This document shows, in pieces, positions 16,757 to 19,067 of a stretch of 64,000 bases of DNA. The notes beneath the pieces were generated by a model that saw only the letters and a list, made by a program, of their open reading frames with translations, was not told where the DNA came from and searched no databases. A program made the translations under genes and the position numbers. Within the stretch, counting starts at the first letter, position 1. Each line of letters starts with the position of its first letter. Location: the NCBI RefSeq assembly GCF_002025255.2, contig NZ_CP054587.1, positions 930,001-994,000 of the forward strand, read 5' to 3'. Source of the DNA: Halolamina sp. CBA1230 (GTDB lineage: Archaea > Halobacteriota > Halobacteria > Halobacteriales > Haloferacaceae).

Positions 16757-17638
16757 CTACCCCGCCGACTCGATCTCGGACTCGATCACGTCGACGTCGC
16801 CGTCGACGGTCAGCCGCAGCCGTTCGTCCCCGACCCGACAGCTGACTTCGACGCGCCAGGGGTCCTGTGAGAGCACGCGGTCCTCGGCGTACTGGCAGAT
16901 CGACCACGGGTGACGATCGAAGATCTCGATATCGTGGTCGTGGAAGAAGCTGACCACCGCCGGCTCGATGTTCAGCGCGAACGGGACGCCACAGTGCATC
17001 GACCAGCTACACCGCCGGCAGCGGAATCGGGCGACCGAGGCGTAGACGCGCTCGTTGAACTCCTCGAGCTTCCCGCCGTCCTCGGCGAGTCGGCTCTCGA
17101 CCTCGCCGGCGCAGTACGGGCAGATCCCCTGCCGCATCGCCGCCTGGTCCCGTAGGATGTACGCCCCGCCGGCCGCGAGCAGCGACTCGGGCCGGTTGCG
17201 GTCGAAGCTCGCGGGCGGGATCGGGTACCTGATGACGAGGTTCTCACACGCGCGACAGCCCAGGTGGAACTGACTGTCCGCGTACCACGCTGCCGCGTCC
17301 GCGCCGCAGTACGGGCAGCGCTCCCCGTCGACGGGGACGGGATCGGTGTCGCCGTCCTCGGCGTACGCGCCGGAGACGATCGATTGGTAGATGTTGTTCC
17401 CCGACGGCTCGAGCTCGTACCCGTCCTCGCGTTTGGCGACGAGCCGATCGGTCAGCTTCGTGAGATGGTAGTTGAAGCGGCCGTTGTCCTCGACGCCGAC
17501 ACGGCGCTGGAGGTCGGTGAAGGAGAGCGGCGCGTCGTCCTCGGCCATCGCCTCGCCCAGCGTCCGCAGGATGTCGAGTCGGACCTCGTTCGACAACAGG
17601 TCGAACGTCTCGATCGGTCCGTCGAGGTCGCCGCTCAT
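16757..17638 (-). CDS. ArsR-type winged-helix regulator with two zinc ribbons
   Basis: The product has 293 residues. FDLLSNEVRLDILRTLGEA through DLQRRVGVEDNGRFNYHLTKL is an ArsR-like winged helix (residues 10-75). Two zinc knuckle pairs follow: CPYCGADAAAWYADSQFHLGCRAC at about 108-131 and CPYCAGEVESRL .. RCRRCSW at about 174-213. The C-terminus has a beta-rich region (WRVEVSCRVGDERLRLTVDGDVDV). This architecture is widespread in haloarchaea; its ligand is unknown. GATATAAACC on the minus strand, about 30 bases before the start, is the promoter. The gene converges tail-to-tail with the permease-Usp gene, whose stop directly abuts it. Confidence 0.85.
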   Translation of the reverse strand: MSGDLDGPIETFDLLSNEVRLDILRTLGEAMAEDDAPLSFTDLQRRVGVEDNGRFNYHLTKLTDRLVAKREDGYELEPSGNNIYQSIVSGAYAEDGDTDPVPVDGERCPYCGADAAAWYADSQFHLGCRACENLVIRYPIPPASFDRNRPESLLAAGGAYILRDQAAMRQGICPYCAGEVESRLAEDGGKLEEFNERVYASVARFRCRRCSWSMHCGVPFALNIEPAVVSFFHDHDIEIFDRHPWSICQYAEDRVLSQDPWRVEVSCRVGDERLRLTVDGDVDVIESEIESAG

Positions 17639-17814
17639 TCGTTGGATCGCTACACCGTGATGGTTTATATCTTCTGTTATCTGTTACGTTTCTAAAATAA
17701 CACGGACGCGTGAGTATCGCCGCAGGCGGGTACGTCGGGCGATTTTTCTCGGCCGGTGTAGTGAAACGCAGTTCACCGAGCGCTTTTGATCGGTGATACC
17801 GAACGGGGAGACGC

Positions 17815-18065
17815 GTGCGTGAGGGATCTGCCTCTGACAGATCACCACCCCTCTCCGCACGAGGCGAGCCCCTCGCCACCTTCCGGTGAGGGGCCAGTAC
17901 TCACTAGCTTTACCAGAGGGCAAACGCCCCTCTGGGTTGGGCAACGGTCAGCTTGCCCTGAAGTCGGGGACGTTGAACGTGAGCGACGTGTCCAACGTCC
18001 ACTCCAGTCTGGAGTTCGAACGGGAGTCCACCGACAAGCCCACCCCTTCAGGGGTGGGTCGCTGA
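17815..18065 (+). ncRNA. Candidate structured RNA: run of seven hairpins, omega/sot-RNA-like IS200/IS605 relic
   Basis: Seven consecutive inverted repeats tile this stretch: 17815-17860 (GTGCG/CGCAC, GAGGG/CCCTC and GATCTG/CAGATC in one long arm), 17869-17893, 17913-17935 (CCAGAGGG/CCCTCTGG), 17939-17958 (GGGCAA/TTGCCC), 17968-18000 (GGACGTTG/CAACGTCC), 18001-18015 (ACTCCAG/CTGGAGT) and 18039-18058 (CCCACCCC/GGGGTGGG). The last hairpin with TTCA loop followed by GTCGCTGA resembles the right end of haloarchaeal IS1341-type elements. In such elements an RNA overlapping the 3' end of tnpB guides TnpB. No tnpB is present here. It has not been tested; strand is inferred from the reading-frame remnant. 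Confidence 0.55.
17937..18065 (+). pseudogene. TnpB-tail-like reading frame remnant
   Basis: The frame from about 17937 reads LGNGQLALKSGTLNVSDV, then VHSSLEFERES, and ends TDKPTPSGVGR before TGA at 18063-18065. It resembles the proline/serine-rich tails of haloarchaeal IS1341-type TnpB proteins, which are encoded over the element's terminal hairpin. The catalytic RuvC and zinc-ribbon parts are absent. The assignment rests on recall of such tails and needs a database search. Confidence 0.4.
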
Positions 18066-18102
18066 CGGGAACGTTTTACCCCACGCCGGCGTAATCGCCG
18101 CC

Positions 18103-18153
18103 ATGGATCGACTCCAGTTCGAACGCCGGCGCCACTCCGGAGGGCGAGCGTGA
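18103..18153 (+). CDS. Possible 16-codon upstream ORF coupled to the hydrolase gene
   Basis: An ATG at 18103 opens 16 codons (MDRLQFERRRHSGGRA) ending in a TGA that overlaps the GTG start of the next gene (GTGA, 18150-18153). CGTTTTAC at about 18071-18078 is a TATA-like box placed for transcription to start almost exactly at this ATG. The mini-gene would therefore be the leaderless first cistron, and the hydrolase would be reached by termination-reinitiation. Alternatively it marks an old frameshift in a longer hydrolase N-terminus. Confidence 0.4.
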   Translation: MDRLQFERRRHSGGRA

Positions 18154-19067
18154 GCGGCAGCCACGCCGGCCGCGGGAAACCGAGCCGCTACGCGTTCTCG
18201 ACCCGCGAGCTGGCGTTCGAGGGTCGTCGCGGCCACCTGTTCACCCCCGACCGGCCCGCCGACGCCCCCGTGGTCGTCCTCGCCCCCGGCGCAGGGCTGT
18301 CGTGGCGTCCGGCGCTCGAACCAACCGCCGAGCGACTCGCGGCGCGGGGGTACGCAGTGCTCGCGTTCGACCACCGCGGCTTCGGCGCCGTCGGCGAGGA
18401 TCGCCTCCTCTCCCCGACCCGCCAACGCGCGGATCTCGACGCTGCGATCGAGGCTGCGCGGGACGCCCCGGAAGTGGACGGCGACCGCCTCGCACTCTGG
18501 GGGATGGATCTCTCGGCGGGCACGGCGTTGTCGGCCGCCGCGGACTCGTTCGGCGTCGACGCCGTGATCGCCCGGTTCCCCGTGCTCGCGGGGTCGGGGC
18601 TGCTCCCTTCGTGGGTCCGCCCTCGACTCCGCGGACTGGCTCGCGGTGTCGCGGACTACCCCGCCTCGGCGCTGGGTCGGCTCCGCGGCGTCGACGCCGA
18701 CGAGCGCGGGATGCGTGTGCCGCTGTTCGGCGACGCCGGCGAGGTGGCGGCGGTCGCCGCGTCCGGCGTCTCGTGGAGCGTGCGCGACCTGCTCGGGCGC
18801 GAGCCCGGAACCACGCCCGCGCGCTCGCTCATGAAGCTCCAGCGTCACGACTTGCGGGCGGCGGTGGCGGAGGTGAACTGTCAGACGCTGTTCGTCGCCG
18901 GCGAGCACGACACGGTCGTGCCGCCGGCGTCGGTTGTCGAAGCGAGCGAGCGGGTTCGGGACGCCTCGCTGGTCCGGGTGCCGGTGTCGCACTACGCGGC
19001 TCTGGAAGGGCCGGAGCTGGATCGCGTGCTGAACCACGAGCTGGCGTTCCTGGACGCGGAGCTGTAG
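18150..19067 (+). CDS. Alpha/beta hydrolase with Asp at the nucleophile position
   Basis: The product has 305 residues from a GTG start. It has VVVLAPGAGLSWRPALEP (oxyanion region), YAVLAFDHRGFGAVGEDRL, then LALWGMDLSAGTAL at the nucleophile elbow, GEHDTVVPP (acid) and VSHYAALEG (His). Relatives usually read W-G-x-S-x-S-G-G at the elbow; here Asp120 stands where the serine is expected. Asp nucleophiles are known in haloalkane dehalogenase-type members of this fold, so the enzyme may act on C-halogen or other bonds, or be inactive as a serine esterase. The protein is cytosolic, with no signal peptide. Confidence 0.8.
   Translation: MSGSHAGRGKPSRYAFSTRELAFEGRRGHLFTPDRPADAPVVVLAPGAGLSWRPALEPTAERLAARGYAVLAFDHRGFGAVGEDRLLSPTRQRADLDAAIEAARDAPEVDGDRLALWGMDLSAGTALSAAADSFGVDAVIARFPVLAGSGLLPSWVRPRLRGLARGVADYPASALGRLRGVDADERGMRVPLFGDAGEVAAVAASGVSWSVRDLLGREPGTTPARSLMKLQRHDLRAAVAEVNCQTLFVAGEHDTVVPPASVVEASERVRDASLVRVPVSHYAALEGPELDRVLNHELAFLDAEL

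Follow-up and report, generated by a model that had tools for sequence, protein, structure and literature searches.

A hairpin row in Halolamina sp. CBA1230 joins an IS1341-type tnpB remnant to an older candidate RNA gene with a loop complementary to the rosR start

INTRODUCTION

Seven hairpins stand side by side between positions 17815 and 18065 of the DNA analyzed here, a window of 64,000 nucleotides from Halolamina sp. CBA1230 to which all bare positions refer. Does this row form one genetic element, or does it bring together sequences of different origin? In haloarchaea, an RNA known as sotRNA or omega RNA overlaps the tnpB gene (PMC12558985), and an earlier note on this DNA had read the whole row as such a TnpB-linked RNA or as an IS200/IS605 element.

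RESULTS

The hairpin row is composite

The inverted repeats seen in the row are real, and the seven hairpins could be located at approximately 17814 to 17861 (with a nested ATCTG/CAGAT), 17868 to 17894, 17913 to 17935, 17939 to 17958, 17968 to 18000, 18002 to 18014, and 18039 to 18058. Folding of the region confirmed their strength, since a 261-nt stretch reached -125.8 kcal/mol, compared with -104.9 +/- 5.3 kcal/mol for dinucleotide shuffles (z of -3.9; 0 of 200 shuffles as low). Each half also folded significantly by itself, with a z of -4.0 for 17812 to 17899 and of -3.98 for 17905 to 18066, and folding of the promoter stretches flanking the two halves was not significant. The proposal that the row is a single unit was refuted by the congeners, in which 17812 to 17899 occurs without 17905 to 18066. 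The row is a composite, in which a tnpB remnant adjoins an unrelated and older candidate RNA gene. The TnpB-linked, IS200/IS605 reading holds for the right 162 bp and fails for the left hairpins, about one-third of the claimed unit, which are separate and older. The tnpB part also carries a caution, namely, that the hairpin-rich end of an IS605 relic beside an unrelated RNA gene can mimic one element by eye.

The right part is a relic of an IS1341-type element

The remnant (17905 to 18066, plus strand, 162 bp) comprises the last 53 tnpB codons, the right tip ..GCTGAC, and an omega-RNA-like fold, and it encodes LALPEGKRPSGLGNGQLALKSGTLNVSDVSNVHSSLEFERESTDKPTPSGVGR. As had been claimed, a reading frame ending STDKPTPSGVGR is present, with its stop codon TGA at 18063 to 18065. 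The right 162 bp come from an IS200/IS605 (IS1341-type) element, of which they represent the tnpB 3' end and the right tip; the fold is kept and tnpB is gone. The remnant contains neither an intact tnpB nor a tnpA; its first 364 tnpB codons are missing, and the insert begins inside tnpB with no left end or left-end hairpin. It shares 97% identity with the last part of a tnpB-containing frame in the same genome (G000:C3:76280-76441) and 90% with an intact tnpB at C3:123365. Phage records contained no match. The frame that contains its closest relative (G000:C3:76281-77339, minus strand; L009:2282-3340) joins a universal-stress-protein-like N-terminal part to a TnpB C-terminal part.

In an alignment of 16 full-length relatives, all 16 end in ..TGAC, followed by unrelated flank, and TCAC precedes 13 of them. 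The remnant was found in the same arrangement, 3' of the short target TCAC (17901 to 17904, plus strand), with no duplication and with the tip ..TGAC. The empty site could be identified in four Halolamina congeners, which have the same intergenic region without 17905 to 18066, and in this alignment the TCAC is native sequence. One of these congeners reads ..GGGGCC-N5-TTCAC|GGGAACGTTTTAC.., where CBA1230 reads ..GGGGCCAGTACTCAC|[162 bp]|GGGAACGTTTTAC.., and the other three have variable bases just before the junction. In genome G001, which has the candidate RNA in the same gene order, hairpin 2 likewise runs straight into ..ACGGGAACGCTTTAC. According to the empty-site alignment, the insertion cost no native sequence.

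The fold of the parent family consists of 25 pairs, with 99.3% of cells paired and 49 cells with two-sided changes, compared with at most 52% of cells paired in sliding controls, and the remnant retains this covarying fold at the tnpB 3' end. Comparison with the Rfam sotRNA models, as the earlier note had advised, gave no match of the remnant to RF02656 or RF02657 at E values up to 10. The intact relatives were likewise unmatched by these models, and RF02656 does match other loci of this genome. Two functions suggested for the remnant, use in trans with a distant TnpB and retention as a regulator of the hydrolase, were unsupported, since the site is empty in four congeners and neither this genome nor the relatives examined yielded a second copy with the same left end. 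Most likely, the remnant is an inert relic, an inserted element minus its left end and core that has damaged neither the RNA gene nor the hydrolase promoter; in itself, it is ordinary.

Origin of the short insert

The left junction is exactly TCAC|TAGC, and the native flank is complete. A deletion could explain this junction if it ran through a short (T)AGC repeat that some left tips have in common with tnpB; IS605 elements that lost their core are documented from Haloquadratum (PMC3119063). Alternatively, the 162-bp piece may have been inserted directly as a short form, through an aberrant TnpA-type event that took an internal hairpin as the left end, with no deletion from a full element. The exact junction and unharmed flank would suit such an event, as would the length of the truncated copies found, 12 of 19 being 115 to 262 nt. 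However, almost no other truncated copy begins at TCAC, the donor-like copies lack TCAC ahead of TAGC, and the (T)AGC-repeat deletion is equally simple and of a kind already known for IS605 cores (PMC3119063). We therefore regard direct insertion as doubtful, though worth keeping in mind.

Many 5'-truncated tnpB copies keep the right tip (L015, L049, L053, L020, L062, L098, L122-L126, and others), and the share of them that is only 115 to 262 nt long exceeds the expectation for evenly spread left ends. This excess of short right-end fragments was not used as evidence, because their left ends differ and decay could produce it. A reverse-transcribed guide RNA was rejected as the source of the insert, which ends exactly at the DNA right tip and is followed by native sequence with no donor flank.

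The left part is an older candidate RNA gene

The left half of the row corresponds to a candidate structured RNA gene (17812 to 17899, plus strand) with two stem-loops, at 17814 to 17861 and 17868 to 17894. We aligned five Halolamina sequences over the two stem-loops and added a sixth, from G001, by a covariance-model match at which the gene order is the same as in CBA1230. Across the six sequences, 98.3% of cells were paired and two pairs showed two-sided changes. At this locus, genome G004 has neither the DUF7351 gene nor the candidate RNA. A search of the region and its relatives with Rfam found no family matching the native RNA. Of the weak covariance-model matches outside Halolamina, the four that were inspected lacked the loop motif, looked coding-like, and were rejected as chance; a promoter-plus-loop pattern, and not the covariance model, led to the RNAs in other genera.

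Upstream of the first stem lies a TATA-like box, CTTTTGA (17783 to 17789, plus strand). The stretch of approximately 25 nt between this box and the first stem is constant in length and variable in sequence in the six Halolamina genomes and so resembles the spacing between a promoter and its start. Clearer TATA boxes stand at the same place in other genera (TTTATG, TTATAA, and GTTAAT). The BRE of this putative promoter is overlapped by a palindrome, GTGAAACGCAGTTCAC (GTGAA..TTCAC; 17761 to 17776, plus strand), which is conserved in the congeners and takes a varied form in G001 and Haloparvum; it is a candidate operator. A divergent winged-helix regulator (DUF7347/DUF7351 by Pfam; 16757 to 17638, minus strand) is a candidate for binding it.

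Haloparvum sedimenti again has the palindrome, a TATA box, and the loop motif, here with another stem, beside a regulator that is 39% identical. Stems around the loop motif differ in sequence between genera yet still pair. In Halorubrum, other genes neighbor the candidate RNA, which argues that it is not tied to the regulator or to the hydrolase. The structure is thus conserved independently of the neighboring gene, in six Halolamina sequences and in other genera with other stems and neighbors. We conclude that the candidate gene at 17812 to 17899 is older than the remnant and occurs not only in Halolamina but also in further genera of the same family.

The loop is complementary to the start of rosR

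The loop motif of the candidate RNA, CTGCCTCTGACA (17828 to 17839, plus strand), is complementary to the rosR start (C1:2601883 in this genome), with which the 17812-to-17899 RNA has a common run of 13 nt. The rosR gene encodes an oxidative-stress regulator, and the protein in question is PadR-type and RosR-like (phmmer E value of 4e-43 to hsRosR). OxsR was rejected as the target because it is a TrmB-type protein.

The pattern of promoter plus motif, TTCACCGA-N(45-75)-GCCTCTGACA, was searched for in 392 genomes of the order and found in 20, nearly all of one family, compared with 2 matches for the backward control; a few of the 20 (G281, G424, and G219) look like chance. Matches to the pattern in viral contigs were set aside as chance, since individually they lacked a promoter box or stem context. 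The bare motif, TGCCTCTGACA, occurred 62 times in 18 genomes (17 with the promoter-plus-motif pattern, and G004), compared with 25 times for the backward control. Forty-four of these matches lie outside rosR, and some of them will be chance, given the yield of the backward control.

In all 18 of these motif-carrying genomes, one match is antisense to the start ATGTCAGAGGCA (ATG TCA GAG GCA) of the same gene, rosR, which is unlinked to the candidate RNA. The loop (C/G)UGCCUCUGACA is complementary to the start-codon region over 11 to 15 nt; perfect complementarity extends over 12 to 13 nt in Halolamina (two chance-looking loci left out) and reaches a maximum of 15 nt in genera g4 and g16. All 18 rosR genes encode serine at codon 2 with TCA, a codon used for 0 of 83 later serines of these genes and for 1 of 142 serines in six genes of the window. 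AT-rich codons directly after the start are generally common, which tells against the antisense reading. Directly before the motif, 16 of 18 Halolamina loci carry C, whereas 25 of 26 loci in other genera carry G, and codon 5 of rosR correspondingly begins with G in Halolamina and with C elsewhere (Fisher P = 6e-9, a value that overstates the case, as orthologous loci are related). Few independent events underlie this covariation of RNA and target, but within a genome several unlinked loci have the same base in front of the motif. In several genera, a TATA box stands very close to the rosR ATG, so the rosR mRNA should be leaderless there and pairing would cover its 5' end.

On this evidence, we consider it probable, though well short of assured, that the locus belongs to a multilocus family of trans-acting antisense RNAs that mask the rosR start codon, with a dead IS605 remnant next to one of the copies. 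The candidate RNA would act in trans: by pairing with AUGUCAGAGGCA(G/C), where the rosR mRNA has its first codons, its loop would hinder translation initiation. The palindrome in the RNA promoter may serve as an operator that sets the time of RNA production.

The main rival is a shared DNA-binding motif, according to which a regulator would bind (C/G)TGCCTCTGACA as double-stranded DNA, at the rosR start and at the other loci alike, with no RNA pairing. Such a site would show the identical genus-level change of the neighboring base. It would also accommodate the occurrence of both orientations relative to a TATA-like box and the mostly weak outcome of the single-locus stem tests, in which enclosure of the motif in a stem was significant at only 9 of 44 loci. 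However, the stem-loops that carry the motif have different stems in different genera and these still pair, the motif is not itself palindromic, and wherever the conserved promoter accompanies it, it invariably lies in antisense. We consider a DNA site unlikely, and the antisense reading preferable.

Within the antisense reading, five orthologous Halolamina motif loci (L223, L184, L187, L204, and L216) have a TATA-like box on the opposite strand, which suggests that not every motif locus need produce the antisense strand. A transcript from these loci would resemble the rosR start and might be a decoy for the antisense RNAs or have another function. We propose, more tentatively than the masking itself, that the Halolamina and Halorubrum family forms an antisense-and-sponge circuit, in which unlinked stem-loop RNAs would all expose a loop over the rosR start codon and rosR-like transcripts would act as decoys. 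In one genome (G079:C2), three copies of the motif lie within approximately 400 bases (L211:322, 571, and 729), two of them enclosed by clear stem-loops that differ in their stems.

The hydrolase has a probable promoter of its own

The sequence GGGAACGTTTTAC (18067 to 18079, plus strand), directly beyond the remnant, is the probable BRE/TATA of the downstream operon; it is undisturbed by the insertion and is conserved in all congeners at a fixed distance from the next ATG. An upstream open reading frame of 16 codons follows (18103 to 18153, plus strand), the stop of which overlaps the GTG of an alpha/beta hydrolase gene (18150 to 19067, plus strand; Pfam). The length and overlap of this small frame are kept in congeners, and it apparently starts a leaderless mRNA.

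This arrangement bears on the reading that the structured RNA is no independent small RNA but forms the 5' leader of the mRNA for the hydrolase, in the manner of a riboswitch or attenuator. The position of the RNA upstream of the hydrolase in six Halolamina genomes and the lack of a U-run after hairpin 2 speak for a leader, but a second conserved promoter with its own start follows (GGGAACG-TTTTAC-23 nt-ATG) and the neighbors in Halorubrum differ, making this reading improbable. That the whole row is one TnpB-guide RNA or a nonautonomous IS605 element served by a TnpB encoded elsewhere is very improbable: the 162-bp part does share the omega-RNA-like fold and the target rule of its parent family, and about 50 TnpB-type and about 10 TnpA-type matches occur in the genome, but the left half predates the remnant, which has no left end, no second copy with the same left end, and no match to the sotRNA models.

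DISCUSSION

To our knowledge, targets are known for few archaeal small RNAs. In this case, the sequence itself points to a putative target, its contact site, and covariation at the genus level, with several loci per genome, and 17812 to 17899 is a candidate for a new family of antisense RNAs aimed at rosR. If the proposal is true, there would be direct control at the RNA level over a regulator whose role reportedly differs between haloarchaeal species. A literature search found no RNA regulator of rosR, and the locus suggests an unreported RNA switch in salt-loving archaea.

Both parts of the row can be compared with known systems. Like the PATEs and core-deleted IS605-type elements of Haloquadratum walsbyi, especially HqIRS71 (PMC3119063), the remnant is a short noncoding derivative with part of the tnpB C-terminal coding region, no target duplication, and no transposase. 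PATEs occur as several copies sharing both ends, whereas in this genome and the relatives examined the remnant is a single copy without a normal left end, a form that does not demonstrate mobility. With the haloarchaeal sotRNA or omega RNA (PMC12558985; RF02656 and RF02657), it shares its position relative to tnpB, its richness in hairpins, and the covarying fold of its parent family; it differs in lacking tnpB and a match to an Rfam model.

The proposed target is a homolog of RosR of Halobacterium salinarum, for which structures have been solved (6QFD and others) and roles are cited (PMC5892119, PMC12482152); the role of RosR is reported to vary among species (PMC12482152).

As for the candidate RNA itself, it resembles trans-encoded antisense small RNAs in general, which can mask a start codon or a ribosome-binding site, in having a stem-loop with an exposed loop that is complementary to an unlinked gene at its translation start. 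It differs from them in that several loci per genome expose the same loop and in that the target mRNA appears to be leaderless in several genera.
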